DNA from: Prevotella sp.
GTDB lineage: Bacteria; Bacteroidota; Bacteroidia; Bacteroidales; Bacteroidaceae
Length of the DNA: 54,499 nt
Direction of reading: 5' to 3'
Assembly: GCA_017400455.1 (NCBI GenBank)
Contig: JAFPTC010000122.1
Location: forward strand, 1 to 54,499
The position numbers and the translations under genes are program-made. The notes under the pieces were generated by a model. That model saw only the letters and a program-made list of their open reading frames with translations. It was not told the DNA's origin and searched no databases. Positions 25,653 through 51,170 of the stretch are shown here, in pieces (within the stretch, counting starts at the first letter, position 1; each line of letters starts with the position of its first letter).

Positions 25653-25660
25653 TACCTTTG
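25653..25660 (+). promoter_or_regulatory. -7 element of the sugar transporter operon
   Basis: TACCTTTG followed by a 30-base AT-rich leader to the ATG at 25691. It excludes the longer frame that starts at 25223 and overlaps the divergent esterase. Confidence 0.6.
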
Positions 25661-25690
25661 CACCAAATAACTAATAAAAATAAGAATAAA

Positions 25691-33926: not shown

Positions 33927-36680
33927 ATGAAACGAAAAACTTTCATCAAGCAAGGACGATGCGTGGCCGTGGCCACCTGCGGGCTGCTGATGAGTGCAGG
34001 GGTGTTGCAGTCGTGTAAGGACGACGTGCTCACCGGCCAGCCGGAATGGCTGGGCAACTCCATCTATGAGCGTTTGCAGGAAGAAGGCACCTACACCACC
34101 GTGCTGCGTCTGATTGACGACCTGGGCCAGAACGAGGTGCTGGGTCACACGGGTTCAAAGACGCTCTTTGCTGCCGACGACCAGGCCTACCAGCAATGGT
34201 ATCAGAACAACAGCTGGGGCGTGCGCAGCTATGAGCAGTTGACGGATGCTCAGAAGAAGCTTCTTCTGAACAACTCCATGATTAACAACGCCTACCTCAT
34301 CGAGCTCATGGCCAACGCCAGGGCACAGGGCGATGCCGCCACTCCCGAGGAGGGCCGCACCATGCGCCGCGAGACGGCCCTGAGCCTCTATGACTCGGTG
34401 TATGTGATGCCGGCATCGAAGATGCCCGACACCGAGGCGTGGGCCAGCTACAAGCAGAGGGGCAAGAGCATGCCCATCTTCATGGACGCCACCACCGCAC
34501 CCATGATCCACTTCCTGCCGGCCTACATGACCTACAACAAGATCTCGGCCGAGGACCTGGCCATCCTCACCAACCACCAGGCCACCTCCATCGACGAGGC
34601 ATGGGTGAACGGCAAACGCGTGGTGGAGCGTGACATCACCTGCAAGAACGGCTACATTCAGAAGGTGGACGGCGTCATCGAGTCGTCGCCCAACATGGCC
34701 GAAATCATCCGCCAGCATCCCAACATGTCGATGTGGAGCCACCTGCTCGACCGCTATTCGGCTCCTTACTACGATGCTGCTCTCACACGCGAGTACAACC
34801 GTATATATAATAATGAGGACTCCGTCTTCGTGTTGCGCTACTACAGCAGCCGCTCGGCCGGTGGCAACGAGAACAGCCGCGACCCCAAGGGCAACCCCTG
34901 GACGGGCGGTCTGCTCAGCTTCGACCCGGGTTGGAACCAGTATGTGGATGCCAACTCGAACAACGACCTTCACAACGACGCCGGTGCTATGATCGTGCCC
35001 ACGAACCAGGCCCTGCAGGAGTGGTGGGAGAACGAGGGACGCGACCTGCGCGACGAGTATAAGGAGTGGGACTCTATCCCCTCTACCACGCTGGCCAAGC
35101 TGCTGCGCGTGAACATGCTCAGCACCTTCTCAGAGTCGGTGCCCTCGAAGTTCGAGAGCGTGCTCAACGACGCCAAGGAAAGCCTGGGCATCAAGAAGGA
35201 GGATGTTGACAGCTGCTTCATGGGCTGCAACGGCGTGATCTACCTCACCAACAAGGTGTTCACCCCGGCCGAGTACAGCTCGGTGGCCTATCCCGCACTG
35301 GCCCACGCCTCGACGATGAACATCATCTACTGGGCCATCGACCAGCGCAACTTCCTGCCCTACCTGCTCTCCATGGACTCGAAGTACGCGCTGCTCATCC
35401 CCACCAACGATGCCATGCTCTACTACATCGATCCCGCCAGCTATGGCGGCACGAACACGCTGAAGGACCAGGCCGGCAACGACAGCATCACCTTGGAGTC
35501 GGCCGACCTCATCGAGTTCCACTACGATCCCACTAAGGCCTCCGACCGCCGCGTGCAGGCCAGCCGCTGGGCCGTGACCATCGACAAGGACGGCAACTTC
35601 ACCAAGACCGGTGACCGCGCCAAGCAGGCCGAAGTGGCCAGCAACGTCATCAACAAGATCATGGACCAGCTCATGGACCAGCTCATCATCGTCATCCCCG
35701 ACAAGTCGATGACGCTCGAAGACTACGTTAACCAGGGCTACAGCTATTTCAAGACCAAGGGCGGCGCCATGACCCGCGTCACCATGGGTGCCGACGGCAG
35801 GCTGGCCTTCGAGGGCGGCTTCCAGATGGAGCACGGTGGCCACGCCATCCCCTCCACCGAGCGCTACCCGAAGGTCAACGGTGTTAGCTATCAGCTGGAG
35901 CAGTCAGTGCCCCTGGGCGCCGAGAAGTCGCTCTACACCATGCTGAAGGAGCACCCCGAGTATCAGGCCTTCCTGAACCTGCTGGTGAACGACTACTGGC
36001 AGATTGACCAGAAGAGCGCCCTGCTGAGCACCAAGCTGAGCAACAAGTACAACCCCGGCCTGATGGCCCAGGAGAACCAGAACCTGCGCCTCTTCGACAA
36101 CTACAACTACAACGTCTACATTCCAACCAACGCCTCAATCGAGAAGCTCCAGAACGACGGCATCCTGCCCAAGTGGCACGAGCTGGAGATGGGCGACGAG
36201 AACAACGAGGTCATCGACAGCATCTGCCGAGCCGAGGGCTGGTATGAGCTGGGACCCGACGAGGCCACCGTGCAGGCCAAGGTGGGTGCTGCCATCGTGG
36301 GCATCCTCACCGACTTCATCCGCTATCACGTGCAAGACCACTCAGTGGCCATTGGCATGGCTTCCGACCAGTACAGTGGCGTGAAGTATGAGAGCATGAA
36401 GCGCAATCCCGAGACCGGACGCTTCCTGCCGCTGGAAGTCACCTTCGACCAGAACAGCCTGTCGGTGAAGGATGTGGCCGGCAACGTGCGCCACGTCGTC
36501 ACCACTCCCGGACTCTACAACAACATCGGACGTGAATACTGGTTCGAGGGCACCGGCAACAGCGCCCGCCTGTTCATGGCCAGCGACATCGTGGTTCACC
36601 AGATCGACGGCCCCCTGCAGTACAGCGAGGACGGCTGGAAACCCTGGCGACAGGTTGTCAGAGAAGCACTTAACCAATAA
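33927..36680 (+). CDS. Fasciclin (FAS1)-type surface lipoprotein 1
   Basis: A 917-residue lipoprotein; the signal ends at GVLQSC (Cys30). Repeated FAS1-like units are read from motifs of the form strand, TLF/LLIPTN, helix, then a His-containing closing strand: TVLRLIDDLGQNEVLG with KTLFAADDQAYQQWYQN (about 45-200), KYALLIPTNDAMLYYIDP (about 480-500) and YNVYIPTNASIEKLQNDG with FIRYHVQDHSV (about 725-810). FAS1 domains mediate adhesion or ligand binding on cell surfaces. First gene of the seven-gene block; 18 bases separate it from SusC1. A small in-frame duplication (MDQLMDQL) is visible near residue 575. Specific ligand unknown. Confidence 0.8.
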   Translation: MKRKTFIKQGRCVAVATCGLLMSAGVLQSCKDDVLTGQPEWLGNSIYERLQEEGTYTTVLRLIDDLGQNEVLGHTGSKTLFAADDQAYQQWYQNNSWGVRSYEQLTDAQKKLLLNNSMINNAYLIELMANARAQGDAATPEEGRTMRRETALSLYDSVYVMPASKMPDTEAWASYKQRGKSMPIFMDATTAPMIHFLPAYMTYNKISAEDLAILTNHQATSIDEAWVNGKRVVERDITCKNGYIQKVDGVIESSPNMAEIIRQHPNMSMWSHLLDRYSAPYYDAALTREYNRIYNNEDSVFVLRYYSSRSAGGNENSRDPKGNPWTGGLLSFDPGWNQYVDANSNNDLHNDAGAMIVPTNQALQEWWENEGRDLRDEYKEWDSIPSTTLAKLLRVNMLSTFSESVPSKFESVLNDAKESLGIKKEDVDSCFMGCNGVIYLTNKVFTPAEYSSVAYPALAHASTMNIIYWAIDQRNFLPYLLSMDSKYALLIPTNDAMLYYIDPASYGGTNTLKDQAGNDSITLESADLIEFHYDPTKASDRRVQASRWAVTIDKDGNFTKTGDRAKQAEVASNVINKIMDQLMDQLIIVIPDKSMTLEDYVNQGYSYFKTKGGAMTRVTMGADGRLAFEGGFQMEHGGHAIPSTERYPKVNGVSYQLEQSVPLGAEKSLYTMLKEHPEYQAFLNLLVNDYWQIDQKSALLSTKLSNKYNPGLMAQENQNLRLFDNYNYNVYIPTNASIEKLQNDGILPKWHELEMGDENNEVIDSICRAEGWYELGPDEATVQAKVGAAIVGILTDFIRYHVQDHSVAIGMASDQYSGVKYESMKRNPETGRFLPLEVTFDQNSLSVKDVAGNVRHVVTTPGLYNNIGREYWFEGTGNSARLFMASDIVVHQIDGPLQYSEDGWKPWRQVVREALNQ

Positions 36681-36698
36681 GAGAGGAGGACACATCGT

Positions 36699-39600
36699 AT
36701 GAGAATACTTAAAGCCATCATATTGACCCTGGCCCTGACACTCACCACAGCCGTGAGGGCACAGGAAATTACGTCGGTTCACGGCACCGTGAGCGACGAA
36801 CTGGGCGGACTGATGGGTGCCACCGTGTGTGAGATCGACGCCAACGGGCGTATCATCAACTCGGCCGTCACCGACCTCAACGGTAACTTCACCATGAAGG
36901 TGAAGAGCACCAAGGACAAAATCCGCTTCACCTACGTAGGTATGGCCGCACAGGTGCTGCCAATCAACAAAACCACCTACAACATCAGCATGAAGAGCAA
37001 GACCACCATCAAGGAAGTGGTGGTGAAGTCGAAGAAACGTGCCAACGGCAACGGCCTGCCCATCCCCGAGCGAGAAATATCCTACGCCTCGCAGACCATC
37101 TCCATGAAGGAGTTCGAGGGTCTGGGCATGACCACCATCGACGAGGCCCTGCAGGGACGTATCGCCGGTCTGGACATCATTAGCAACTCTGGTGACCTGG
37201 GTGCCGGTTCCACCATGCGTCTGCGTGGCGGCGGCTCGCTCTCTACACTGACCGACGCCAACCCGCTCATCGTCGTCGACGGTAACATCCGCGAGGTGAA
37301 CCTCGACAACTTCGATATGGCTGGCGCCAACAACGAGAAGTTTGCCGAGCTGCTGAACATCAACCCCGAGGACATCGCCAGCATCACCGTGCTGAAGGAT
37401 GCCGCCGCCTGTGCCGTCTACGGTTCGCAGGGTGGTAATGGTGTCATCGAGCTCACCACCAAGCGTGGTGCCTTCGGTAAGCCCCGCATCACCTACTCGC
37501 TGAAGCTCACCGGCACCTACCAGCCCAAGGGCTACGACCTGCTCAACGGCGACGACTACACCATGATGCTGAAGGAGGCTTACTTCAACCCCCGTCAGGA
37601 CGACAACGCCAGTGACGCAGGACGTATTCCTGAAATCAACTATCTGGACAACACCGGCGGCTTTGCCGAGTGGCGCCAGTACCGCGACAACACCGACTGG
37701 CGTGACGCCGTCACCCAGTGGGGCTTGCGCCAGAACCACTACGTCACCATCAGCGGTGGTGGTGAGAAGGCCTCGTTCCGCATCGGCGGTGGTTTCGACC
37801 ACGAGACGGGTACGATGATCAAGCAGAAGCTGAACCGCTTCTCCACCCGCGTGGCATTGGACTACAAGGTGTCAGAGCGTATCCGCGTCAGCACCAACTT
37901 CTCGCTCACCTACACCAAGAACGACCGCAACAGCGACGGCCTGCTCTCGCTGGCCTTGAAGAAGATGCCAAATATGAGCATCTACGAGAAAGACCCCATC
38001 ACGGGCGAGAACACCGGTGCCTACTACACCATTCCGCAGCTCTCGCAGGCTGAGATCAATGCCCGTGGCGGCACCGACGTCTTTGCCAACGACCAGCGCA
38101 CCTATGTCAACCCCGTGGCATCGGCTAACCTGGCCAAGAACGAGCAGCGCACATACGACATGAGCCCCGAGCTGATTATCGACTACAACCTGCTGGGTCT
38201 GGACGAGGACCACTGGCAGCTGAAGTGGAAAGGCTCGGTCTACATGAACATCTTCAATCAATATGACGACAGCTTCTATCCTCAGGAGCTGAAGCGCGTG
38301 AACTGGGAGAACAAGGTCAACACCTCGAACACTGGCTCGTCGAAGAGCGTGTCGTTCAACACCAAGCAGACGCTGACCCTCATTCCCGCCTTCAAGAACA
38401 AGGACCACGCCATGATGATGATGGGCCGCTTCGAGCTGACCAGCGGTTCGTCGAACTCGCAGTCGACCAGCGGCTACGGCCTGCCTTCGACTAACGGCGC
38501 CATCGTCAACCCCGCAGGTGGCGGCATGATCGACACGCCCAGCAGCAGCTACAGCCAGTGGCGTTCGATGTACTACACCTTCTCGGCCCACTACGCCTAT
38601 AAGGAGCGCTACGTGCTCGACGCCACCGTGCGTATCGACGGTACCACCAAGTTCGGTCCTGGCAGCCGTTGGGGCTACTTCCCCAGCTTCTCGCTGAAGT
38701 GGATCCTGAGCGACGAGCCTTGGATGAAGTGGGCTAAGGGCAGCGAGGAAAAGAACTACCTCTCGATGTTTGCCGTGCGCGCCAGCTGGGCCCGCAACGG
38801 TAACCAGCCCGGACAGAACTATCTGTACACCTCTAAGTACGGCTCTGGCTCGCGCTACATCGACATGGCCTCCATGCGCCCCCTGAACATCCGACTCACC
38901 GACCTGAAGTGGGAAAAGAAGATTGGCTACAATGCAGGTATCGACCTGGGCTTCTTCAACGGACGCCTCACCCTGGCCATCGAGGGCTATAGCGAGACCC
39001 GAGACGACATGCTCATGGGCGGCTTCCGCATCCCCTCGAACACCGGTTTCGCCACCGTGCCCTATCATAACAATGGTAAGATGCGCAACACCGGTTGGGA
39101 GTTCCACATCAACTCGAACGAGGTTGTCAAGGCTGGCAAGTTCTCCATGGACGTGAATGCCAACTTCGGTAACAACCGCAACGAAATCCTGGAAATGGAC
39201 GAGTATATCCTCGACCAGAAGAACTCCACCTATGGCTATGCCAACGGTGAGACGCTGAAGCGCGTGCAGCTGCACAACCCCTTCGGTGCCATCTACGGCT
39301 TCAAGTACCACGGTGTCTACCAGTACAACTACAACACCGTCAAGAACGCTGTGGCCGGCATGACCGAGGACGAGATATATGCATGGTGGAACGAGTTCAC
39401 CGCTGCCGGCAAGACGGCTCCTGTGGCCGTGGCTGCCGACGGACGTGTCATCCTCGATGCCAACAACGTGCCTGTGCGCATGCGCTACGACTATCGTGTG
39501 GACGGAACGGGTCACGACCAGAACTTCCCGGGCTTCAATGGTGGCGACGCCATCTATGAGGACCTGAACCACGACGGCCAGATCAACGCACTCGACATCA

Positions 39601-40115
39601 CCTATCTGGGATCGTCGCTGCCTAAGCTCACCGGTGGTTTCGGCTTCAGCTTCCGCTATGGCGACTGGCGCCTCACCACGCAGTTCACCTATCGCGTGGG
39701 CAACAAGATCATCAACCGCGCCCGCCTGGATGCCGAGGCCATGACTGGCAACAACAACCAGAGCCAGGCCGTGAACTATCGCTGGCGTAAGGAAGGCGAC
39801 GTCACCTCTATCCCACGCGCCATGTTCGGTAGCAACAGTAACTACAACACCCTCATCAGCGACCGCTTCGTGGAGGACGGCTCCTATCTGCGTATGAGCT
39901 ATGCACAGCTGAACTACGCCATCAGGAAGAAGTACCTGAAGTGGATTGGCCTGAACGGTGTGTCACTCTATGCCTCTATCAACAACCCCTTCGTCATCAC
40001 GAAGTATTCGGGTGTTGACCCCGACATCGCTTTCGGTGGCGAGGATCCGGCTATCGACGGAGCACAGACACCGCGTTCGCGCTCCTATACACTGGGTATC
40101 ACCGTGAACTTCTAA
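36699..40115 (+). CDS. SusC-like TonB-dependent receptor 1
   Basis: An 1138-residue outer-membrane transporter. The signal MRILKAIILTLALTLTTAVRAQ is followed by a carboxypeptidase-like regulatory domain (about 27-105, VHGTVSDELGGLMGATVCE), a plug domain (about 125-245: ALQGRIAGLDIIS, MRLRGGGSL, PLIVVDG, ITVLKDAAACAVYG, GVIELTTKRG) and a barrel of about 880 residues ending in an aromatic C-terminus (YTLGITVNF). SusC proteins form the barrel that SusD lids cover, importing ligands with TonB energy. It is paired with SusD1, 33 bases downstream. No sugar enzyme lies in the operon, so the cargo is open. Confidence 0.95.
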   Translation: MRILKAIILTLALTLTTAVRAQEITSVHGTVSDELGGLMGATVCEIDANGRIINSAVTDLNGNFTMKVKSTKDKIRFTYVGMAAQVLPINKTTYNISMKSKTTIKEVVVKSKKRANGNGLPIPEREISYASQTISMKEFEGLGMTTIDEALQGRIAGLDIISNSGDLGAGSTMRLRGGGSLSTLTDANPLIVVDGNIREVNLDNFDMAGANNEKFAELLNINPEDIASITVLKDAAACAVYGSQGGNGVIELTTKRGAFGKPRITYSLKLTGTYQPKGYDLLNGDDYTMMLKEAYFNPRQDDNASDAGRIPEINYLDNTGGFAEWRQYRDNTDWRDAVTQWGLRQNHYVTISGGGEKASFRIGGGFDHETGTMIKQKLNRFSTRVALDYKVSERIRVSTNFSLTYTKNDRNSDGLLSLALKKMPNMSIYEKDPITGENTGAYYTIPQLSQAEINARGGTDVFANDQRTYVNPVASANLAKNEQRTYDMSPELIIDYNLLGLDEDHWQLKWKGSVYMNIFNQYDDSFYPQELKRVNWENKVNTSNTGSSKSVSFNTKQTLTLIPAFKNKDHAMMMMGRFELTSGSSNSQSTSGYGLPSTNGAIVNPAGGGMIDTPSSSYSQWRSMYYTFSAHYAYKERYVLDATVRIDGTTKFGPGSRWGYFPSFSLKWILSDEPWMKWAKGSEEKNYLSMFAVRASWARNGNQPGQNYLYTSKYGSGSRYIDMASMRPLNIRLTDLKWEKKIGYNAGIDLGFFNGRLTLAIEGYSETRDDMLMGGFRIPSNTGFATVPYHNNGKMRNTGWEFHINSNEVVKAGKFSMDVNANFGNNRNEILEMDEYILDQKNSTYGYANGETLKRVQLHNPFGAIYGFKYHGVYQYNYNTVKNAVAGMTEDEIYAWWNEFTAAGKTAPVAVAADGRVILDANNVPVRMRYDYRVDGTGHDQNFPGFNGGDAIYEDLNHDGQINALDITYLGSSLPKLTGGFGFSFRYGDWRLTTQFTYRVGNKIINRARLDAEAMTGNNNQSQAVNYRWRKEGDVTSIPRAMFGSNSNYNTLISDRFVEDGSYLRMSYAQLNYAIRKKYLKWIGLNGVSLYASINNPFVITKYSGVDPDIAFGGEDPAIDGAQTPRSRSYTLGITVNF

Positions 40116-40148
40116 TGATAGTTAATTGAAGATTGAAAATTGAAGATT

Positions 40149-41939
40149 ATGAATACCAAGAATAAAAAGACATATAAGGCTGGTTTGCTGTGTTGCGGCG
40201 TAGCCGCAGCCGTGGCAGGCCTCAGCTCCTGTGCCGACTTCCTGGAAATTAAGCCCCAGAGCGAAATCATCCTGGAAGACTTCTGGAACGAGAAGGCCGA
40301 CGTCGACAATGTGGTCATGGGATGCTACAGCGCCCTGCAAAGCGACGCCGTGCGCAAGAGAATGATTGTCTGGGGCGAGGTGAGAAGCGACAATATCATG
40401 TCGGGCCAGAACCTCAACAGTTCAGATGTGGACCTCTATAATGTGGTGCGCGAGAACATCAACGCCATGAACTCCTACACGGTATGGGACGGCTTCTATG
40501 ATGTCATCAACCGCTGCAACACCGTGCTGAAATACGCTCCCGGCGTGGCTGCCGAGGACCCCGGCTACACCCAGGGCGACCTGAACGCCACCATTGCCGA
40601 GATGACGGCACTGCGCGACCTGTGCTACTTCTACCTGATACGTACCTTCCGCAACGTGCCTTACAGCACAGTGGCCTTTACTGACGACGATCAGAAGATG
40701 GACCTGCCCGCCACACCGTTCTATGATGTGCTCGACAGCCTCATCACCGACCTGGAGCGCGTGAAGAACGACGCCGTGGTGCGCTATCCTGAGACAAAGC
40801 CCCGCTATCAGACGGGACGCATCACCCGCGATGCCATCTACGCCATGCTCTGCGAGATGTATCTGTGGAAGAAGGACTATGACAACTGCATCCGCTATGC
40901 CGAGCTGGTCATCAACTCGAAAAAGGATATGTATGAGGAAGAGCGTGCCAAGGGCAACAGCGGCCGCACTACTGCCAGCCTGTCGGCCCTGAACGTGGTG
41001 GATAACCGTTTCAATGGCTATCCGCTGGTGGCCGATGCCACCTCGGGCAACTTCTTTGGCGATGCCTATCAGGAAATCTTCAGCCAGGGAGCCAGCCGCG
41101 AGACCATCTTCGAGCTGAACTATGATGAGTCGCCCGAATCAAGCGGCATGCCCAGCAGCTCGGCCATCTCATCCTTCTATGGTCACAGCAATGCCAACAA
41201 GGGCCTCCTGGCTCCTACGTCGGTCATCATCGACGACGTGTCGGCCACGTCGGGACGCACCATCTTTGAGGACAAGAACAAGAAGCTGGATGCACGCCTC
41301 TATCTGAATCTTGACGCTGAGGGCGGAAGCATCACTAAGCTTGCTACTCGCAGCGTGAACATTGACGCTTCTAATGCTGCAAATAACGTGACCACATCGT
41401 ATTCTTACTACACGCAGAACAACAACAGCAGCCAGTGGATTATCTACCGCCTGCCCGACATCATGCTCATGGAGGCCGAGGCCATCTGTCAGCAGATGCA
41501 GGAGGGCAGCGAGCAGAGCGTCATCGACTTCAACGCCCCGAAGCTGGAGAAGTGCTTCCGCCTGGTGAACGCCATCAACAAGCGTTCTATCTGCAAAGCC
41601 ATCTTGGCAGATGCCGACACCCTGAAGCCTACTGATTACACCACCAAGGCCCTCATGGAGGAACTGGTGCAGCGCGAGCGTCAGCGCGAGCTGATGTTCG
41701 AGGGCAAGCGCTGGTTCGACCTGGTGCGCTACTCCCTGCGCGCCGGCAACACCGAACCTGTTATTGCTGCCGTGGTGAAGCGTGACGACGTGAACGCTAC
41801 CTTCGCTCAGAACTTCTTCAAGAAGATGGACGCCATCTTCTGGCCCTACAACAACGATGAGATGAAGGTGAACAAGAACCTGGTGCCCAACCCCGTCTAT
41901 GGCACGGGCGAGAGTACCAGCTATGAGAAAACCAAATAA
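40149..41939 (+). CDS. SusD/RagB-like lipoprotein 1
   Basis: A 596-residue surface lipoprotein. The start MNTKNKKTYKAGLLCCGVAA is chosen over an ATG 9 bases upstream that lies in the AT-rich spacer. Lipobox AGLSSC, then the SusD opening ADFLEIKPQSEIILEDFW. TPR-like helices follow (AEMTALRDLCYFYLIRTF), and the C-terminal block ELVQRERQRELMFEGKRWFD is the family hallmark. It should bind ligand as the lid of SusC1. The signal-peptide codons contain a hairpin TGCGGC-GTA-GCCGCA (about 40194-40208). Confidence 0.95.
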   Translation: MNTKNKKTYKAGLLCCGVAAAVAGLSSCADFLEIKPQSEIILEDFWNEKADVDNVVMGCYSALQSDAVRKRMIVWGEVRSDNIMSGQNLNSSDVDLYNVVRENINAMNSYTVWDGFYDVINRCNTVLKYAPGVAAEDPGYTQGDLNATIAEMTALRDLCYFYLIRTFRNVPYSTVAFTDDDQKMDLPATPFYDVLDSLITDLERVKNDAVVRYPETKPRYQTGRITRDAIYAMLCEMYLWKKDYDNCIRYAELVINSKKDMYEEERAKGNSGRTTASLSALNVVDNRFNGYPLVADATSGNFFGDAYQEIFSQGASRETIFELNYDESPESSGMPSSSAISSFYGHSNANKGLLAPTSVIIDDVSATSGRTIFEDKNKKLDARLYLNLDAEGGSITKLATRSVNIDASNAANNVTTSYSYYTQNNNSSQWIIYRLPDIMLMEAEAICQQMQEGSEQSVIDFNAPKLEKCFRLVNAINKRSICKAILADADTLKPTDYTTKALMEELVQRERQRELMFEGKRWFDLVRYSLRAGNTEPVIAAVVKRDDVNATFAQNFFKKMDAIFWPYNNDEMKVNKNLVPNPVYGTGESTSYEKTK

Positions 41940-41953
41940 AACCAGTACGAGAT

Positions 41954-44095
41954 ATGAAGACAAAGATTTTTAAAATATTCTGCGCCTGTCTGGTGGGTTG
42001 CGGCCTCTCCGCAACGTTCACTGCCTGCTCTGACGAGCCCGACACTGAGCATTTCTACACGTTCACTGGCGAGATGATGAGCGACTATCTGGCTAATCGT
42101 CCACAGTACAGTGAGTTCAAGACCATTGTTGAGCGTGCAGAACTGATGGACCTCCTGGCCACCTACGGCCAGTACACCTGCTTCCTGCCCAGCAATGATG
42201 CTATCCACACCTATTTGCAAGAGAAAGGCTTGCAGAGCATCGACCAGCTGAGCGATGCCGACTGCGACACCATCGCACGTACGCACCTCGTGGCCAATAT
42301 GTACTCTACTTTCGAGATGAATCAGGACCGCCTGATCACTGCCAACATGCTGGGACGCTATCTGGCCACCTCACAGGGTGTGGATGCCGACAGCAATGCC
42401 GTGGTCTTTCTTGAGGGAACGGCTCACATCATCTTCGAGCAGACACTGGCCGACGGTACTGTGATTCATCAGAACGACTCGGTGGAGAACGGTATCGTGC
42501 AGCCCATCGACATGGTCATCGAGAAGTCGAACAGCTATATTGCTGACATTCTGCGCGACAACCCCAAGATCAGCATCTTCTATGATGCACTGCAGGCAAC
42601 GGGCGTTCGCGAGCAGATTCTGCCGGTGGACGATCCCACCTACAACAAGAACCAGCCTAAGTACCGCTACAAGTCGCACACCTGGAATGAAGTGGCATGG
42701 GTGCCCAGCACCAGGAAGTATGGCTTCACGGCCTTCGTAGAGCCTGACTCGGTTTATCAGGCCAAGTTCGAGGAGTACGGCATCTCTACGGCCAATGGCA
42801 CCTTGCGCGCACTCTATGACCTGGCTTGCAAGATCTACGATCCCGTATTCCCCGGCGATGTGAATGCCGCTGGCCACAGCTTCGAGAACCTGACCGACAG
42901 CGTGAACCCGCTGCACCGTTTCATGCAGTATCACATCATGACCCGCTACGTGCCGGGCACCAGCGATCTCACTGCACTGGTATGCCCCGAGACGAAGGAG
43001 GCCTTCGGCTTCGACACCAAGCTGATAAACCCCATCGACTGGTATCAGACCCTGCTGCCTCACACCATGCTGAAGGTGGAGCAGCTCACCATGACCCGCG
43101 ACGAGCAGGGCAACGACTGCCGTGGCACTGACGGTGCCTACGTAGGACGTCACTTCCTCAACCGCCGCTATGCTGCCCCTGAATACAACTTCCGTGGCGC
43201 CTTGGTCGACAACACCGTGGAGAAGGAGCCTGTTCACGATGCACTGAACGGACACTACTTCTACGTTGACGATCTGGTGGTGTTCAGCTATGAAGTGCAG
43301 AACATTGTGCAGAACCAGCGCATCCGCATGGACTTCTCGACCGTATGGCCTGAGGTGATGACCAACGACATGCGTCTGAAGGGTAACTATACCGTGGACG
43401 ATAACGCCAGCACGCCTGACGACTCGAACGAGCCTAAGAACGGTAAGAACTACTACTTCCCCGAAGGCTATCTGGACGGTGTGACCATCAACAACAACGG
43501 TTACCTGGTGATGCGTCGCCCGCACTGCAACTTCTGGTCGTGGCAGGGTGACGAGTGGAACCTCTTCGGCGACTACGACATGACCTTCCGCATCCCGCCC
43601 GTGCCCTATAGCGGTGAGTGGCAGATGCGCCTGGGCTACTGCGCCATTGAGACGCGTGGCGTCATGCAGAGCTACTTCGACGGCATTCCCCAGGGCATCC
43701 CCGTGGATATGACGAGATTCCTCAATTCCGAGACTTACCTGGGCGACCGCTACGTGATTGACGAGTCGCTGGGCGACTACAAGAAGAAGACCGACGAAGA
43801 GAAGGCCGAGGAGCAGAAGACCCTGAAGAACCTGGGCGTATACCGCGACGGACGCAGCATGTATCACTTCTCCAGTGGTGGCTCGAAGTATTACTTCATG
43901 GGTAACGAGCGTACCCACCGTAAGATAGTCTACCAGGGCTATGTCGATGCCACCAAGGACCACTACGTGCGTTTCCGCGTGGCCAGCGACGGTAAGCAGG
44001 GTAACAACAACGAGTTCATGTTCGACTTCTGGGAAATGGTTCCCAAGAGCGTCTACGGCGTCGATGGTGACGGCGAGATGGAGGACGACCTGTAA
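41954..44095 (+). CDS. Fasciclin (FAS1)-type surface lipoprotein 2
   Basis: A 713-residue lipoprotein, lipobox TFTAC (Cys25). Two FAS1 units are inferred: about 45-195 (MSDYLANRPQYSEFKTIVER, YTCFLPSNDAIHTYLQ) and about 195-455 (ILRDNPKISIFYDALQATGV, RFMQYHIMTRYV, LNGHYFYVDDLVVF). The C-terminal 250 residues are a beta-rich domain with several Tyr/Trp clusters (NFWSWQGDEWNLFGDYDMTF), possibly the ligand face. It starts 14 bases after SusD1, the place where surface glycan-binding proteins sit in polysaccharide loci. A 7-bp hairpin GTTGCGG/CCGCAAC lies in the signal codons at 41997-42015. Confidence 0.85.
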   Translation: MKTKIFKIFCACLVGCGLSATFTACSDEPDTEHFYTFTGEMMSDYLANRPQYSEFKTIVERAELMDLLATYGQYTCFLPSNDAIHTYLQEKGLQSIDQLSDADCDTIARTHLVANMYSTFEMNQDRLITANMLGRYLATSQGVDADSNAVVFLEGTAHIIFEQTLADGTVIHQNDSVENGIVQPIDMVIEKSNSYIADILRDNPKISIFYDALQATGVREQILPVDDPTYNKNQPKYRYKSHTWNEVAWVPSTRKYGFTAFVEPDSVYQAKFEEYGISTANGTLRALYDLACKIYDPVFPGDVNAAGHSFENLTDSVNPLHRFMQYHIMTRYVPGTSDLTALVCPETKEAFGFDTKLINPIDWYQTLLPHTMLKVEQLTMTRDEQGNDCRGTDGAYVGRHFLNRRYAAPEYNFRGALVDNTVEKEPVHDALNGHYFYVDDLVVFSYEVQNIVQNQRIRMDFSTVWPEVMTNDMRLKGNYTVDDNASTPDDSNEPKNGKNYYFPEGYLDGVTINNNGYLVMRRPHCNFWSWQGDEWNLFGDYDMTFRIPPVPYSGEWQMRLGYCAIETRGVMQSYFDGIPQGIPVDMTRFLNSETYLGDRYVIDESLGDYKKKTDEEKAEEQKTLKNLGVYRDGRSMYHFSSGGSKYYFMGNERTHRKIVYQGYVDATKDHYVRFRVASDGKQGNNNEFMFDFWEMVPKSVYGVDGDGEMEDDL

Positions 44096-44126
44096 ATTAG
44101 TAATGAGTAATTAGAAATCTACAATT

Positions 44127-45986
44127 ATGATTACCAAGATATATAAGATATTGTATGCAGGACTGATGAGCTGCGGCGTGGCCGCAGCCCTCACCGCCTG
44201 CACTGAGACATGGGATGACCACTACGAGAGCCTGGGCGACAGCAGTGGCATGCACGAAGGGTCGCTATGGCAGGCCATCAAGAGCAATCCCAACCTGAGC
44301 AACTTCGCCAGCGTCATCGAGGGCTGCGACTTCGCAAAGACGCTCGACGGCAGCCAGGTATTCACCGTGTTTGCTCCCACAAACGACAGCTTCTCGCAGT
44401 CTGAGGCTCAGGCACTCATCGCTGAGTATAAGCAGCAGGAGGCCGCCAACGTGGTGGAGGAGGACAACACCGTGCTGAAAGAGTTCATCCACAACCATGT
44501 GGCGCTCTACAACTATTCGGTTTCCACCAACAGCGAGGACTCCATCACGCTGCTCAACGGCAAGTATGCCGTGCTGAAGAGCGACAACATCGACGGCGTG
44601 CAGCTGCTGACGAAGAACCAGCTCTATGGCAACGGTGTGCTCTACACCATTAACAAGCCCGTGAACTACTTGCCCAGCGTGTTTGAGTATATCCGTAGCG
44701 ATGCCGACCTCGACAGCCTACGTTCGTTCCTCTACAACAGCAAGTTCTACTATCGCGAGTTCCAGCCAGAGCTGAGTGTGCCGGGCAGTATCGTCAACGG
44801 TAAGACCCAGTATCTCGACTCCGTCTTCGTTCAGCGCAACGAACTGTTCAACATTCTGGGCCGCATCGGCACGGAGGACAGCTCCTACATCATGGTGGCT
44901 CCTACGAACGCCGTGTGGAGGGACCTCATCGAGGAGTATGAGCCTTATTTCAACTATCCTACGAATGTGGACAAGCGCGACTCGCTGGTCTATACCAACA
45001 GCCGTCTGGCCATCGTGAACGGAACGACGTTCAGCCGCACCTTCAACACTGATGAGTCGCTGAAGGACTCGGCCATGTCGGAGAACTCTATGAAGGCCTA
45101 TAACTATCGCAAGATCCAGTGGGGCGCTCCCTTCGAGTATTACCAGTATCGCAGCCCGCTGACCCAGCCCTATGGCGCCCTGGCTCAGAGCGAGGTGGCC
45201 AGCTGCAGTAATGGTGAGGTGCGCAAGGCCACACAGTGGAACATTGACAAGCAGATGACTTTCTTCCGCTACATCATCGTGGAGGCAGAGTCGCGCAACA
45301 GCATCAAGGAGGTGAGTAAGCTGGTTGACACCCGTGGCGACTCCATCGCCACCATCTCTCCCACCACCCGCTATGTCACCAACGACAATGCTACTTACTA
45401 CGACAAGGTGTGGAGCAACTCCTTCGTGGAGTTCGTTCCTAACAATGCCGTGGTGAACCATTCTGTTACGTTCAACCTGCCGAATGTGCTGTCGAACATT
45501 GGCTACGATATCTACTTGGTCACTGCACCTGCACTGGCCAACGATAGCAATGCCACCGACATTCAGCGTCTGCCCACGCTGATGCGCTGCACCATCAGCC
45601 AGCCTGGCCAGCAGCCCGATCAGATAAAGGGTGAGAACGGCAAGGTGAAGGAATTCCAGACCACGCCCGACGCCATCGACTATTTCCTGGTGGCTGAAAA
45701 CTACAAGTTCGCCGTTTGTACCTATGGCATTGACGACGAGAACCTGCAGACGACGCTGAAGGTCGAGACCCGTGTGGGCAGTACCCAGGTGCGTAACAAC
45801 ATCCTGACGCGTACCATGCGTATCGACTGCATCCTGTTGGTGCCTCACGGTTCGTTGCAGCTGGTCGACGCCCTGCCTTCCGACAGCTCCGTTCCCTCTC
45901 GCATGTGGGGCACTCCCGGTCTGTTGATGTATCCTCATGGTCAATTCACCGACCGGCCCTTCAAGTGGTGGTATATGCAACGTTAA
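44127..45986 (+). CDS. Fasciclin (FAS1)-type surface lipoprotein 3
   Basis: A 619-residue lipoprotein, lipobox ALTAC (Cys25). The first FAS1 domain is clear (about 45-195): NLSNFASVIEGCDFAKTL, VFTVFAPTNDSFSQSEAQAL, FIHNHVALYNY, LYTINKPVNYLPSVFEYI. A second, weaker one lies at about 195-400 (YIMVAPTNAVWRDLIEEYEP). The rest (400-619) is a beta-sandwich-like domain ending RPFKWWYMQR. Its architecture parallels lipoprotein 2, so a duplication followed by divergence is likely. A perfect 8-bp hairpin GCTGCGGC-GTG-GCCGCAGC sits at 44170-44188, inside the signal codons. Confidence 0.87.
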   Translation: MITKIYKILYAGLMSCGVAAALTACTETWDDHYESLGDSSGMHEGSLWQAIKSNPNLSNFASVIEGCDFAKTLDGSQVFTVFAPTNDSFSQSEAQALIAEYKQQEAANVVEEDNTVLKEFIHNHVALYNYSVSTNSEDSITLLNGKYAVLKSDNIDGVQLLTKNQLYGNGVLYTINKPVNYLPSVFEYIRSDADLDSLRSFLYNSKFYYREFQPELSVPGSIVNGKTQYLDSVFVQRNELFNILGRIGTEDSSYIMVAPTNAVWRDLIEEYEPYFNYPTNVDKRDSLVYTNSRLAIVNGTTFSRTFNTDESLKDSAMSENSMKAYNYRKIQWGAPFEYYQYRSPLTQPYGALAQSEVASCSNGEVRKATQWNIDKQMTFFRYIIVEAESRNSIKEVSKLVDTRGDSIATISPTTRYVTNDNATYYDKVWSNSFVEFVPNNAVVNHSVTFNLPNVLSNIGYDIYLVTAPALANDSNATDIQRLPTLMRCTISQPGQQPDQIKGENGKVKEFQTTPDAIDYFLVAENYKFAVCTYGIDDENLQTTLKVETRVGSTQVRNNILTRTMRIDCILLVPHGSLQLVDALPSDSSVPSRMWGTPGLLMYPHGQFTDRPFKWWYMQR

Positions 45987-46016
45987 TGTTCACATGACTA
46001 AAATATAGAAAGATTT

Positions 46017-49000
46017 ATGAAACGATATATCTTATTTGGATTTTCACTGCTGATGGCGTTCCCTGCGTCTACCTTCGCCCAGGACGACTTGGAGGAGGAA
46101 GAGGAGCAGGTGCCCGTCAAGATCATGAAAGTGAAGCAGAAGAACTATGAAACGCGTGTCATCAAGGGCCTCGTGCTCGATGCCACCACGGGTCAGCCTG
46201 TGGCCGGTGCCATCGTGCGTGCCGCTGAGATGGATGGTTATAGCATCCTGACCGAGGACAACGGTTCCTACGAGCTGAAGGTGCCCGTCTTTGCCACCTC
46301 GCTCTATGTCTCTACACCCGACTACAACGGCGTGCGCATCGGCTTGGTGAAGGATGAGCAGCAGAAGACTGCCATGCTCTATCCCACGACGTTCAATGCC
46401 GAGTACAGCAATCAGACGAATGTCCGGGGCGACCAGTCAAGCGCCAACTTCGCCTATACCAACGCCGTGAACATCAAGTCTGAGATTCAGGACCAGCTGG
46501 GAGCCTTCGTCCACACGGTGGGACGCAACGGCACGCCTGGTGTTGGCAGCGTGATGTTCATGCAAGGTCTGAACTCGCTTAACGTCAATGCACAGCCGCT
46601 GGTGGTGGTCGACGATGTCATCATCGACCAGCAGTATGGCCGCACGCTACTCCACGACGGCTTCTACAACGACGTGCTCACCAACATCAATCCCTCTGAT
46701 ATTGAGAAGGTGACCGTGCTGCGCAACGGAACCGCCCTCTATGGCTCCAAGGGTGCCAATGGTGTCATCCTCATCCAGACGCGCCGCAACAAGTCCATGG
46801 CCACCCGCATCACTGCCACGGCCTCTGCCGGCGTGACGCTGGAGCCGAAGTATATCTCGGTGATGGATGCCGGCCAGTATCGCAGCTATGCATCTGAGCT
46901 GCTCAAGTCTACCAATACCACCATCCGTAAGTTCAGTTTCCTCAACGAGGATCCCACTTACTACTACTACGATCAGTACCATCAGCAGACCGACTGGAAG
47001 GACTACGTCTATCGTACTGCCATCAGCCAGAACTATGGTATCAACATCGAGGGTGGTGACGACGTGGCCAACTACAACCTCTCTGTGGGCTATGGCAACA
47101 TGCAGAGCAACCTCAAGGAGAACGGCATGGGGCGTCTGAACATACGCTTCAATACCGACATCAACCTCTCTCAGCGCATTGGCGTGCGTTTCGATGCATC
47201 GTTCTCGAATGTCACCCGCAACCTGCGCAACGACGGTGCTCCCGAAAGCTACGACGAAGGCACTCCCACGGCGCCCAGCTTCCTGGCCTACGCCAAGAGC
47301 CCCTTCATGAGCCCCTACAGCTATGGTCACGACGAGACAGGTAAAGGCCGCTTCGCCGACAGCCACTACGACATCACGCAGGAGTCCTACCTCTCCGAGG
47401 CCCTGGCCAACTACAGCGGCTACAACTGGCAGCTCGGTAACCCCGCCGCCATTCTCGACTACTCAGAAGGCGAGAACAAGAACCGCTTCGAGAACTCTAT
47501 GCTGAACCTCACCGTTACGCCGAAGTACAAGTTCAATCCTCACCTCTTCGTGAGCGAGCACTTCAGCTACAACCTGGTCAACACCAACGAGATGTTCTAC
47601 ATCCCCATCAACGGCACGCCCCGCTACTATGTCACCAGCCTGGGTGGCTATCGTGAGAACGAGGTGCGCTCGCTGGCTTCAAAGCAGAACTCCGTTCAGA
47701 GCGACACCCGCATTGACTGGAACAACCGCTACGGTGCTCATTTCATCCATGTCTTTGGCGGCGCCCGCATCAACTGGGAGAGCTTCACCACCAATTCGCA
47801 GGTGGGCTACAACACCGGTAGCGATAAGACTCCGTTCATGAGCGGAAGCTTGCAGAACAAGGATGTGGTAGGCCTCAACGAGAATTGGAACACCCTCTCC
47901 TGGTATGCACAGGCTGAGTACAACTACATGAGCCGCTACTATCTGCAGGCCAATCTCTCTGTCGACGGTTCGTCACGCTTCGGCGAGGATGCCGGCGACA
48001 TCAAGATTCTCAAGGCGCCTTGGGCCATCTTCCCCGGCTTGCAGGCTGCTTGGGTCATCAGCAACGAGCCTTGGATGGCTGGTGTGAAGGGCATTGACTA
48101 CCTGCGCCTCTCTGCTGGCTACGACATCAGCGGTAACGACGACATCGACTTCTATGCCGCCCGAAGCTACTTCCGCGCTTCTCAGTTCCTGCACACCATC
48201 TCTGGTCTGTCGTTCGACGGCATTGGCAACAATGAAATCCAGTGGGAGACCACCCGTCGCTTCAACGTAGGCCTTGAGTCCAACCTGCTGAACAATCGCC
48301 TGTCGTTCAGCGTCAACTACTTCCGTTCCAACACCGACAACCTGCTCACCCGCCAGTCGCTGGGCTTCCTCAGCGGTCTTGACATGAACTGGAACAACGG
48401 TGGTAAGTTGAAGAACGAAGGCTTCGACGTGAGCTTCACCGCCAAGCTGCTGGCTCTGAAGAACTGGCAGTGGCAGCTGGGAGCCAGCGCTGGTCACTAC
48501 AAGAACGAGATTACCGACCTGCCCGATGGCAAGCAGTACCTCGACAACGAGGTCTATGGTGCTACCATCCGCACCCAGATTGGCCAGGTGGCCAACGCCT
48601 TCTATGGCTACAAGTCCCTGGGCGTCTTCGCCACCACTGAGGAGGCTCAGCAGGCCAACCTCTACTTCATGGCCGACAACGGTGTTGACCGCAACTACTT
48701 CAAGGCTGGCGACGTTCACTTTGCCGACCTCAACAACGACGGCATGATTACCGAGGCCGACCAGATGATTATTGGCGATCCCAATCCCGACATCTACGGC
48801 AACATTTTCACCACCCTGCAGTGGAAGCGCCTCAAGCTCGACGTGCGCTTCAACTACTCGCTGGGCAACGATGTCTACAACTACATGCGTTCGCAGCTCG
48901 AAGGCGGCAGCCGCTTCATAAACCAGACCACTGCCATGCAGCGCCGCTGGCAGGTGGAAGGCCAGGCTACTGACATTCCCCGCATCACCTTCCAGGATCC

Positions 49001-49274
49001 CATGGGCAACTCCCGCTTCAGCGACCGCTGGATCGAGGATGGCAGCTACCTGCGCCTGAAGTCGGCAACGCTCAGCTACGACCTGCCTCTGAAGTCCGAG
49101 TACATCCAGGGCCTGCAGCTTTGGGTGCAGGGCAACAACCTGCTCACCTTCACCAAGTACCTGGGCAGCGATCCTGAGTTCACCATGACCAGCAGCGTCA
49201 TTGGTCAGGGCATCGACCTGGGCCGTCTGGGCCAGAGCCGCAGCATCGTGGCTGGTGTGAAGATCAACCTGTAA
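46017..49274 (+). CDS. SusC-like TonB-dependent receptor 2
   Basis: A 1085-residue outer-membrane transporter. The signal MKRYILFGFSLLMAFPASTF ends near AQ, then an unusual acidic run (DDLEEEEEQ), then a carboxypeptidase-like domain (about 45-120, VIKGLVLDATTGQPVAGAIV). The plug follows (about 135-260: GVGSVMFMQGLNSLNVNAQP, then LVVVDDVIIDQQYG, VTVLRNGTALYGSKGANGVI) and a barrel to the C-terminus. Sequence similarity to SusC1 is only at the family level, so this pair is not a recent copy of the first. Start 30 bases after FAS1-3. Confidence 0.95.
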   Translation: MKRYILFGFSLLMAFPASTFAQDDLEEEEEQVPVKIMKVKQKNYETRVIKGLVLDATTGQPVAGAIVRAAEMDGYSILTEDNGSYELKVPVFATSLYVSTPDYNGVRIGLVKDEQQKTAMLYPTTFNAEYSNQTNVRGDQSSANFAYTNAVNIKSEIQDQLGAFVHTVGRNGTPGVGSVMFMQGLNSLNVNAQPLVVVDDVIIDQQYGRTLLHDGFYNDVLTNINPSDIEKVTVLRNGTALYGSKGANGVILIQTRRNKSMATRITATASAGVTLEPKYISVMDAGQYRSYASELLKSTNTTIRKFSFLNEDPTYYYYDQYHQQTDWKDYVYRTAISQNYGINIEGGDDVANYNLSVGYGNMQSNLKENGMGRLNIRFNTDINLSQRIGVRFDASFSNVTRNLRNDGAPESYDEGTPTAPSFLAYAKSPFMSPYSYGHDETGKGRFADSHYDITQESYLSEALANYSGYNWQLGNPAAILDYSEGENKNRFENSMLNLTVTPKYKFNPHLFVSEHFSYNLVNTNEMFYIPINGTPRYYVTSLGGYRENEVRSLASKQNSVQSDTRIDWNNRYGAHFIHVFGGARINWESFTTNSQVGYNTGSDKTPFMSGSLQNKDVVGLNENWNTLSWYAQAEYNYMSRYYLQANLSVDGSSRFGEDAGDIKILKAPWAIFPGLQAAWVISNEPWMAGVKGIDYLRLSAGYDISGNDDIDFYAARSYFRASQFLHTISGLSFDGIGNNEIQWETTRRFNVGLESNLLNNRLSFSVNYFRSNTDNLLTRQSLGFLSGLDMNWNNGGKLKNEGFDVSFTAKLLALKNWQWQLGASAGHYKNEITDLPDGKQYLDNEVYGATIRTQIGQVANAFYGYKSLGVFATTEEAQQANLYFMADNGVDRNYFKAGDVHFADLNNDGMITEADQMIIGDPNPDIYGNIFTTLQWKRLKLDVRFNYSLGNDVYNYMRSQLEGGSRFINQTTAMQRRWQVEGQATDIPRITFQDPMGNSRFSDRWIEDGSYLRLKSATLSYDLPLKSEYIQGLQLWVQGNNLLTFTKYLGSDPEFTMTSSVIGQGIDLGRLGQSRSIVAGVKINL

Positions 49275-49304
49275 TTAGTAATGAGTAATTAGGAATTAAT
49301 AATT

Positions 49305-51170
49305 ATGATTAGTCTCAAGAATAAATATTATCATCGGGCTGGCTCGGTATGCTGCGGCTTTGCCGCCGCCCTTCTGGCTCTTGCAACGTTCACATCCTGC
49401 GACGATTTCTTCGAGCAGAATTCTGACGACGTGCTTTATGCCGACAAGGAGCATCTGAACAATGCTGTCGACACCATCTATTCTGTGACGGGCATTCTCA
49501 CCAAGATGCAGGCACTGGCCGACCGCACCATCCTGCTTGGCGAGGTGCGTGGCGACCTGGTGGACCTCACCAACATTGCCAGCAACGACCTGCGCGAGTT
49601 GGCCCAGTTCAATGTCAGCGACGACAACATGTACAATCGCCCCAGCGACTACTATGCCGTCATCAACAACTGCAACTACTTCATTGCCCATGCCGACACC
49701 GCCCTGCGCAGCAACAGCAACGACTATGTGTTCATGAAGGAGTATGCCGCCGTGAAGGCCTTCCGTGCCTGGACCTATCTCCAGCTGGCCCTCAACTACG
49801 GCCACGTGCCCTTCTTCACCGAGCCCCTGCTCAGTAAGGAAGAGGCCGAGGCTGCCGAGACCGCCAACAAGGCCGACCTGCAGACCATCTGCTCTTACTT
49901 CATCAACGACCTGATGCAGCTGCCCGAGCGCTACAACACCGAGCTGCCTGGCTACCGCACCATTCGTGGCGTGGAGTCGAGGATGCTCTTCTTCCCGCTG
50001 AGCATCATCCGTGGCGACCTCTATCTCTGGCGTGCCACCGTCACCGGCAGCAAGGAAGACTATCGCCAGGCTGCGCTGAACTACTACAAGTACATCAGCG
50101 AGCGCAACGGCACCAACTCAGCCTATCCCACCGATCTTGCCTACTCCATGTGGGATGCAGGCTCCTCCACCTGGACCATGCGTGTCTCGCGCAACATCAC
50201 CAGCAGCTCAGAGGCCTTCGGCGAGAATGGCGAGCTGATTGCCATGATTGCCGGCGACTCCATCCGTGCCGAGGGTAACTACAGCGAGCTGCGTAACCTG
50301 TTCAACTCCAACGAGGACAACGACTACAAGGTCAGCATCACGCCTTCTCAGCGCATGTTCGACATCTCCGAGTCGCAGGCCTACGCCCAGCTGTCCTACG
50401 ATGGCAACAGCGTGGAGTACGCCCCTGCCGGACTGCCCGACCACGAATCTGGCGACCTTCGCCTCTGCACGTTCTATAGCGAGGGCTTCACTCGCGACCG
50501 TGCCACTGGCGAGCGCATCGAGACCCAGAGCATCGGCAAGTATGCCACCCGCAACGTCCACATCTATCGTCGCATGATGGTCTATATGCGTATGGCCGAG
50601 GCCCTCAACGGTGCCGGCTATCCCCGCATGGCCTATCAGATCCTCTCCGAGGGTCTCAGCGACCGTGTCATGCAGACCAGCGTCTTCCCCTACTATGACA
50701 CCGAGGACAAGAGCGACTCTCTCTTCCTGGCCAAGTTCGAGTTCCCCGACACCCGCTACGCCGTCATGGACGTTGGCGACATCATTGGCGTGGGCTCTTC
50801 TACCCACAACATGATGGGCATCCACACCCGTGGCTCGGGCTGGACGCCGATGAACGCCTACTATCAGCTGCCCAACGACACCATCGAGCCCGACGCCTCT
50901 AAGCGCGCCCAGCTCACGGCCGAGCAGCAGGTCTTCGTCGACAGCCTCCTGCTCAACGAGTGCGCACTGGAGTTTGCCTTCGAGGGCACCCGCTACTACG
51001 ACATCATGCGCTTCGCCCTGCGTCAGGACAATCCTGGCGAATTCATGGCTAAGCACATCTACGCCCGTCGTGGTCAAGACAAGAGCGGCGAGATGCAGGC
51101 AGAGATCAAGGCCAACTTGGCTGACCAGCGCAACTGGTATCTCAACTGGAAGGGCAAGATTGGCTATTAA
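49305..51170 (+). CDS. SusD/RagB-like lipoprotein 2
   Basis: A 621-residue surface lipoprotein, lipobox TFTSC, opening DDFFEQNSDDVLYADKEHLN. TPR-like helices (EYAAVKAFRAWTYLQLALNY) and the C-terminal LLNECALEFAFEGTRYYDIM match the SusD family. It pairs with SusC2, 30 bases upstream, and ends the operon; the following 100 bases start a repeat array. The signal codons hold GCGGC-TTT-GCCGC at 49354-49366. The spacer before it carries a 20-base word identical to the one before FAS1-3. Confidence 0.95.
   Translation: MISLKNKYYHRAGSVCCGFAAALLALATFTSCDDFFEQNSDDVLYADKEHLNNAVDTIYSVTGILTKMQALADRTILLGEVRGDLVDLTNIASNDLRELAQFNVSDDNMYNRPSDYYAVINNCNYFIAHADTALRSNSNDYVFMKEYAAVKAFRAWTYLQLALNYGHVPFFTEPLLSKEEAEAAETANKADLQTICSYFINDLMQLPERYNTELPGYRTIRGVESRMLFFPLSIIRGDLYLWRATVTGSKEDYRQAALNYYKYISERNGTNSAYPTDLAYSMWDAGSSTWTMRVSRNITSSSEAFGENGELIAMIAGDSIRAEGNYSELRNLFNSNEDNDYKVSITPSQRMFDISESQAYAQLSYDGNSVEYAPAGLPDHESGDLRLCTFYSEGFTRDRATGERIETQSIGKYATRNVHIYRRMMVYMRMAEALNGAGYPRMAYQILSEGLSDRVMQTSVFPYYDTEDKSDSLFLAKFEFPDTRYAVMDVGDIIGVGSSTHNMMGIHTRGSGWTPMNAYYQLPNDTIEPDASKRAQLTAEQQVFVDSLLLNECALEFAFEGTRYYDIMRFALRQDNPGEFMAKHIYARRGQDKSGEMQAEIKANLADQRNWYLNWKGKIGY

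Follow-up and report, generated by a model that had tools for sequence, protein, structure and literature searches.

We analysed 54,499 nucleotides of a Prevotella sp. genome (positions 1 to 54,499 of contig JAFPTC010000122.1, GenBank assembly GCA_017400455.1), hereafter called the window. The draft genome from which it comes has a size of 2.5 Mb and is 71% complete. At 33927-51170, the window contains a cassette of seven genes, designated F1, C1, D1, F2, F3, C2 and D2 in this order, which encode two pairs of SusC- and SusD-type proteins (C1-D1 and C2-D2) and three lipoproteins with fasciclin-type (FAS1) domains. As judged from sequence comparisons, the seven genes are arranged like an operon and have been inherited for the most part as one unit, and C1 keeps a TonB box, whereas C2 contains no recognisable one. 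We propose that the products of the cassette assemble into a single heteromeric machine at the surface, which would handle plant cell-wall oligosaccharides and be powered via C1 alone. We infer the complex, its powering and its cargo, and we give this proposal an even chance of being right.

Genes of the cassette

The seven open reading frames (ORFs) are on one strand, and the gaps between them, from F1 to D2, are 18, 24, 14, 31, 30 and 30 bases. An earlier inspection of the window, based on its letters and ORFs (the sequence-only reading), had described three FAS1 proteins and two SusCD pairs in this order, and Pfam and NCBIfam profiles bear out the description (Table 1). The close packing that it reported also holds, although the range that it gave, 14-33 bases, is 14-31 when measured. 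Both SusC proteins exceed the cut-off of the NCBIfam family TIGR04056 (368.25 bits). The FAS1 identity, for which the sequence-only reading looked to profile searches, is upheld as well, since the Fasciclin matches of F1, F2 and F3 are all above the Pfam cut-off. Likewise, C1 and C2 are, as had been claimed, only distantly alike: phmmer gives 215-220 bits between them, compared with self scores of 2616 and 2482.

A lipobox cysteine can be read near the N-terminus of F1, F2, F3, D1 and D2, and those of F1 and of F2 are conserved at 90% or more. A Pfam scan found no enzyme encoded among the seven genes. This gene content supports the earlier suggestion that FAS1 lipoproteins occupy the place that surface glycan-binding proteins have in classical loci.

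Descent of the two SusC proteins

In a tree of 23 C1 proteins, 23 C2 proteins and the ten other SusC proteins of the window's own genome, the C1 proteins form one clade and the C2 proteins another, each with a support of 1.0, and the split that separates C1 plus C2 from the ten controls has a support of 0.95. We therefore treat C1 and C2, provisionally, as sister clades that would derive from one old duplication; the relation is provisional because the controls come from one genome only, which counts against it.

Tree and distance comparisons between the cassette genes were made on the 31 loci in which all seven genes are complete. Of 28 splits, 26 are common to the trees of C1 and C2 and none is strongly contradicted, while trees with random labels share 0.29 splits on average and three at most. 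For all 21 pairs of cassette genes, the number of shared splits is from 20 to 26 of 28, and in 13 of the 31 loci all seven genes have the same nearest neighbour. The congruence is imperfect, and this too must be set against descent as a unit: up to three splits are strongly contradicted per gene pair (0-3), and the correlation of distances, which is highest for C2-D2 (0.87), is only 0.64 for C1-D1. Since the trees are mirrored and C1 and C2 appear as sister clades, the unit would have descended whole from the old duplication. The existence of a six-gene form, F-C-D-F-C-D, in a locus of another genome (L303, genome G122) suggests that the founding event was a tandem duplication of a FAS1-SusC-SusD unit.

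TonB box of the two SusC proteins

In Bt1763, the levan SusC of Bacteroides thetaiotaomicron, residues 81-86 (VDEVVV), located after an N-terminal extension, are the putative TonB box, and mutants without the box behave as non-functional on levan (PMC7782687). C1 of the window has IKEVVV at the position of this box, and the motif is also present in all ten non-cassette SusC proteins over the cut-off in its own genome. These ten proteins served as controls for a position matrix, which was trained on nine of them and on half of the C1 proteins; C2 proteins of 230 amino acids or less were left out. The C1 set, both here and in the distance correlations above, does not include locus L101, in which there is a second SusC that is unrelated.

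The controls scored from 17 to 23, and the held-out C1 proteins had a median of 22.4, with 46 of the 50 scoring at least 13.4. In contrast, the 81 C2 proteins had a median of 6.3 and a maximum of 11.2, and shuffled C2 sequences had a median of 6.0 and a 95% point of 11.2. An alignment inspected by eye gave the same division: a strand that fits the pattern [LIVMF]xx[VALI]x[VI] is present in 31/31 C1 rows, and no such strand stands at the matching place in the 30 aligned C2 rows (0/30). The four low-scoring C1 proteins show variant strands on alignment, namely IAPVTI (twice), IEDLIV and MKEVVI.

Several points weigh against so clear a division. Nine of the ten controls also trained the matrix that scores them. 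TonB boxes are short and variable, and 4/50 held-out C1 proteins are below 13.4. Moreover, 35 of the 81 C2 proteins reach the lowest C1 score (6.9), although none reaches the 10th percentile of C1 (15.1). When a matrix was made from the ten controls alone and applied order-wide, 10/24 C1 and 1/27 C2 proteins were above the shuffled 95% point; because this matrix is too weak, the order-wide claim rests on the alignment by eye. Finally, the C2 proteins of L043, L048 and L049, which belong to a divergent subtype, have NETxVTP near the position of the box, so these proteins may contact TonB by a different segment.

The last point also favours another explanation, in which neither pair is idle: C2 would draw its energy from a TonB contact that escaped recognition, and the cargo would be either handed between the pairs or taken up by both. 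Such an explanation would account for the fact that C2 retains a plug, a full barrel and a SusD partner. However, it does not sit well with the lack of a conserved box-like strand in the aligned C2 rows, nor with the reduced C2 of L303 (936 amino acids), where there is too little room for an N-terminal extension because the plug motif is about 90 residues from the start. We consider activity of both pairs to be fairly unlikely.

Recurrence of the cassette

Named genomes were scanned with the F1 alignment, which gave at least 570 relatives among at least 592 matches, and 80 loci were kept. The best-matching named relatives are mostly metagenome-assembled genomes of Prevotella from the rumen and hindgut of herbivores; culturable carriers are Prevotella communis E15-14 (L114) and Hallella seregens ATCC 51272 (L131). 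In 61 of the 80 loci, the fetched DNA shows F1, C1, D1, F2, F3 and C2 in order as far as it reaches; nine others stop earlier, two have two F2 genes, and eight have an unlabelled ORF in the place of a gene, as assigned by a crude gene caller that takes the longest ORF first.

Adjacency was counted in these 80 loci, 31 fetched loci and the window, with L101 included. F1 is followed by C1 in 101/104 cases, C1 by D1 in 97/105, D1 by F2 in 94/98, F2 by F3 in 94/102, and F3 by C2 in 89/95. The 29 exceptions from F1 to C2 consist of 16 sequence ends, nine opposite-strand ORFs, two unlabelled ORFs and two second F2 genes. C2 is followed by D2 in 24 of 91 cases, and the other 67 are sequence ends.

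A FAS1 search of 40 genomes, including the window's own, matched 14. The own genome carries a second complete copy of the cassette on contig C31 (L035), and cassette parts on contigs C14 and C158 (L036 and L037), both of which end inside C1. The two parts, which we left unjoined, probably belong to one third cassette. In the order as a whole, a FAS1 match occurs in 60 of the 247 genomes, counting the own one. The sequence-only reading had proposed a search of Bacteroidales for the same gene order, and the order is indeed found: of 40 regions around chosen FAS1 hits, 18 contain all seven genes in order (F1 is cut in L206), and several of the others are cut off by contig ends. An unlabelled gene is at the F1 position in L236, and an opposite-strand ORF is at the F2 position in L224. 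Variants that depart from a fixed unit, and thus tell against it, are L208 without F3, L227 without F2, L125, L159 and L217 with two F2 genes each, and the reduced six-gene form with a C2 of 936 amino acids, seen both in L303 and in L225 (genome G207).

Beyond the order, a draw of 296 genomes of the phylum gave an F1 match at 1e-15 in seven, namely the own genome and six from other orders of the class. The seven loci of these six genomes all keep the order F1-C1-D1-F2-F3-C2-D2 (7/7); in five of them, the DNA that was fetched ends within D2. Within the window's genus, F1 is present in 52 of 149 sampled genomes (own included), in up to seven copies. In genome G124 (2.7 Mb; L305-L332), 28 SusC rows are over the cut-off, two of which are abutting pieces; nine are best as C1 and nine as C2, with wide margins, and thus 18 of the 28 rows belong to the cassette. 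In the own genome, the cassette accounts for 6/16 SusC proteins over the cut-off, one of the six being split at a contig end.

These counts bear on the simplest alternative, in which two ordinary and independent SusCD importers, serving two cargoes or two steps, happen to share an operon. Tandem SusCD pairs do occur in known loci, and the distant likeness of C1 and C2 is in keeping with such an arrangement, which the sequence-only reading took as likely. Independent importers would, however, leave several things to be explained: nearly every locus seen has both pairs, in an order that does not change, the two SusC proteins appear to be sister clades with mirrored trees, nine C1 proteins match nine C2 proteins in G124, and a TonB box is recognisable in C1 only. 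One machine fits these observations better than two importers. The earlier expectation is thus not borne out; in view of the mirrored trees, we rejected independent importers as the leading reading and regard them as unlikely.

FAS1 genes without a SusCD label nearby were also found in the order-wide regions (L226, L234 and L238-L242). In L238-L242, they encode stand-alone proteins of 443-1453 amino acids that consist of strong FAS1 repeats.

Domains of the FAS1 proteins

The three FAS1 proteins were divided into parts and compared with a FAS1 profile using hhalign. F1 matches at residues 38-265, 262-460, 455-665 and 660-905 with probabilities of 99.5, 96.5, 76.1 and 98.9, respectively. F2 matches at residues 35-195 (100.0) and 195-450 (97.7) but scores only 0.2 at 440-713, and the three parts of F3 give, in turn, 99.6, 90.5 and 0.1; by this comparison, the last third of F2 and that of F3 are non-FAS1. 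Note that the repeat test is partly circular because the profile was made from Pfam-matched segments, some of which come from cassette proteins. The C-terminal domain of F2 was considered as a candidate xylan-binding domain on the basis of a weak match to MiXBM (E 0.014), but the candidate was dropped when the domain alone gave an E of 0.77.

An AlphaFold2 model of F1 (83 sequences) is confident, with a predicted local distance difference test score (pLDDT) of 91.6 and a predicted template modelling score (pTM) of 0.85. Its best PDB matches by Foldseek are TGFBIp and periostin, with E of about 1e-19 to 3e-18, and profile comparison also likens F1 to these two proteins. The likeness consists in four FAS1 domains, with F1 being aligned over nearly its whole length (881-892 alignment columns). 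However, the two are secreted human proteins with 12-13% identity to F1, and the TM-score by target is 0.31-0.34, whereas values of up to 0.78 against the F1 model are seen for single FAS1 domains. Since the scores over the whole length are low, the arrangement of domains differs: as modelled, F1 is made of four FAS1 repeats that are arranged unlike those of the human proteins.

The resemblance to four-FAS1 matrix proteins raises the question of whether the cassette is mainly an apparatus for adhesion or matrix binding, with uptake being secondary. This idea is favoured by the flanks, where a number of genes are for large secreted proteins that carry lectin-like domains or tails of the type IX secretion system (T9SS). 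On the other hand, both SusC proteins are full-length with plugs, C1 retains its TonB box, and sugar-degrading genes flank a number of loci. We judge a mainly adhesive role to be distinctly unlikely.

Comparison with known systems

By sequence, no solved structure is closer to either C1 or C2 than the SusC protein of the dextran system (8aa4). The core of the known utilisomes is SusC2D2, which is joined by a glycoside hydrolase and by a protein that binds the glycan (PMC7618045). The levan and dextran utilisomes of Bacteroides thetaiotaomicron thus resemble the cassette in having a SusCD core with surface lipoproteins encoded beside it. They differ in that each has one SusC and one SusD with a hydrolase, whereas the cassette has two sister SusCD pairs, three FAS1 proteins and no enzyme among its seven genes. 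The SusCDE system of Flavobacterium johnsoniae (Fjoh_0403-0405) likewise combines SusCD with an unrelated surface lipoprotein of unknown function, but it has one SusC, one SusD and one extra lipoprotein (PMC12611786); the words 'FAS1' and 'fasciclin' are absent from the main text of that paper. We also considered BamGH as a precedent for a SusCD that does not import, and discarded it since BamG is FadL-like according to the same paper (PMC12611786).

The claim of the sequence-only reading that no system of this make-up has been characterised agrees with what we found: searches of the open literature for fasciclin-type proteins in connection with SusC, SusD, TonB, Bacteroides or Prevotella turned up no description of one, a scope outside which most subscription papers fall. 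In PMC10199937, the sole occurrence of fasciclin is in the reference list. No statement of the kind 'lacks a TonB box' was found with SusC in the open literature searched.

Among SusCD-type pairs, RagAB of Porphyromonas gingivalis is a peptide importer that is not known to have a dedicated glycosidase, and in the latter respect it is like the cassette. To our knowledge, however, RagAB has one pair only and no FAS1 proteins. An importer of peptides or glycoproteins would agree with the lack of an enzyme among the seven genes, with the presence of RagA among the solved relatives of C1 and C2, and with the genes for M60 and M16 peptidases near a few loci. Nevertheless, RagA is a poorer match to C1 and C2 than the dextran SusC is, and the enzymes encoded nearby are mostly for plant glycans, which makes a RagAB-like function highly improbable.

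Proposed mechanism

In the single machine that we favour, F1, F2 and F3 would sit on the cell surface and hold the glycan, a task that usually falls to surface glycan-binding proteins. The pairs C1D1 and C2D2 would together form an asymmetric counterpart of the SusC2D2 dimer, in which TonB would pull the plug of C1 only and C2D2 would act as a docking or gating half. The enzymes would come from flanking or distant genes, and the copies of the cassette within a genome would differ in their cargo, that is, in whether the glycans bear arabinose, xylose or rhamnose.

A broader and more tentative proposal, which we hold to be possible rather than probable, concerns the class Bacteroidia as a whole. 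Here, the ancestral FAS1-SusC-SusD duplication would have been followed by loss of the TonB contact in one half, which would have become a permanent unpowered partner; a heteromeric SusC1D1-SusC2D2 core with F1 as a periostin-like surface protein of four FAS1 domains would thereby replace the symmetric utilisome. As far as we know, the structures solved for SusCD complexes have been interpreted as symmetric dimers whose SusC subunits are each TonB-driven. If the proposal is true, the second SusCD pair of this widespread and strongly conserved unit, having no box, is a natural experiment on the purpose of the second half of the dimer. It would also put a name to a system that supplies a large share of the SusC genes in some genomes, such as G124 (18/28 rows) and the own genome (6/16).

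Neighbouring genes and cargo

Ten ORFs upstream of the cassette were scanned in the window, and the features found are listed in Table 1 together with the cassette genes.

Table 1. Features of the window. Positions refer to the 54,499-nucleotide stretch; aa, amino acids; GH, glycoside hydrolase family.
Feature	Position	Strand	Evidence
F1, 917-aa lipoprotein with four tandem FAS1-type domains, the third weak	33927..36680	+	Pfam Fasciclin 45.6 bits, E 9.7e-12
C1, SusC-type 1138-aa transporter with N-terminal extension, predicted TonB box IKEVVV and plug	36699..40115	+	TIGR04056 669.8 bits; Plug
D1, SusD-type lipoprotein, partner of C1	40140..41939	+	SusD_RagB E 2e-21, SusD-like_3 1.3e-15
F2, lipoprotein with two FAS1 domains and a non-FAS1 C-terminal domain	41954..44095	+	Pfam Fasciclin 44.0 bits, E 3.2e-11
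F3, lipoprotein with one clear and one weaker FAS1 domain and a non-FAS1 C-terminal domain	44127..45986	+	Pfam Fasciclin 43.4 bits, E 4.8e-11
C2, full-length SusC-type protein with plug and barrel, no recognisable TonB box	46017..49274	+	TIGR04056 548.9 bits over 2-981/981; Plug
D2, divergent SusD-type lipoprotein, partner of C2	49305..51170	+	SusD_RagB E 2.4e-08
MFS sugar transporter, start uncertain (overlaps opposite-strand ORF)	25223..27094	+	Pfam MFS_2 E 6.8e-54
GH43 glycosidase	27113..28144	+	Pfam Glyco_hydro_43 76 bits
Secreted 1187-aa DUF5013 protein, 1192 bases upstream of F1	29171..32734	+	Pfam DUF5013 29.1 bits, cut-off 28.5
Esterase-like gene (SASA)	23542-25548	other strand	scan of upstream ORFs
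TonB-dependent receptor-like gene (OMP_b-brl_3, plug), far upstream	2660-5209		Pfam
GH97 gene, far upstream	6314-8323		Pfam

The GH43 and MFS genes in tandem probably belong to the same glycan locus as the cassette. The claim that the system has no enzymes is right for the seven genes but not for the window, where these two genes precede the cassette on its own strand. Of the 80 named loci, 43 have a DUF5013-type protein related to the 1187-aa one (more than 70 bits). Where such a relative is immediately upstream of F1, the gap between them is 8-587 bases, compared with 1192 bases in the window (32735-33926); no Rfam family was found in this gap of the window.

A GH51-type alpha-L-arabinofuranosidase gene is upstream of F1 in 11 of the 80 named relatives, at a distance of 8-71 bases in ten of them. 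The GH51 assignment comes from Pfam in L112 and L244 and, in the other ten Prevotella-type rows, from similarity to L112. The own-genome copy L035 is adjoined by a divergent GH43 gene, and in L174 a GH67 gene is upstream of the cassette. Pfam at first gave no glycosidase among nine representatives of the neighbours, but a scan of 73 of the 83 representatives of Prevotella-type loci did find some: the families listed include GH43 in three representatives and GH10, GH67, alpha-fucosidase and rhamnogalacturonan lyase 11 in one each. In other families of the order, 51 of the 106 flanking proteins listed (L243-L282) were scanned, and the families listed include the T9SS type A tail (19 proteins), histidine-kinase-like proteins (five), GH5 (three), a glycosidase core (three) and rhamnogalacturonan lyase (two). 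In three loci of other families, single scans named GH51 and GH2 on the downstream side of D2 and, upstream of F1, a glycosidase core that is combined with H-lectin and a T9SS tail.

As predicted from these families, the common thread of the nearby enzymes is plant cell-wall sugars (arabinose, xylose and rhamnose), the partners differing by copy. The proposed cargo has to be weighed against an alpha-amylase in L120, an M60 peptidase in L170, and the many loci where no enzyme was seen nearby; because the neighbouring enzymes are mixed and many loci show none, the cargo is weakly constrained. The sequence-only reading would be refuted, on its own terms, if homologous loci usually included glycosidases. 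Some do (GH51 in 11/80, and GH43, GH67, GH2 and GH5 elsewhere), but not usually.

Given the many T9SS tails in the flanks (19 of the 51 proteins scanned), we also considered whether the cassette depends on the T9SS, and abandoned the idea. Co-occurrence of the two is uninformative because SprA is present in 235 of the 247 genomes of the order; moreover, genome G122 carries the reduced cassette and has no SprA hit, so that at least this form exists without a T9SS.

In four loci, L-rhamnose genes are located within some 7 kb upstream of the cassette. An L-rhamnose isomerase was identified by NCBIfam in L273 (L215) and in L297, where it is cut by the end of the locus, and rhamnose isomerase- and transporter-like genes were identified by similarity in L270 (L211) and L282 (L224). 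An L-rhamnose kinase-like gene is also among the rhamnose genes of these four loci.

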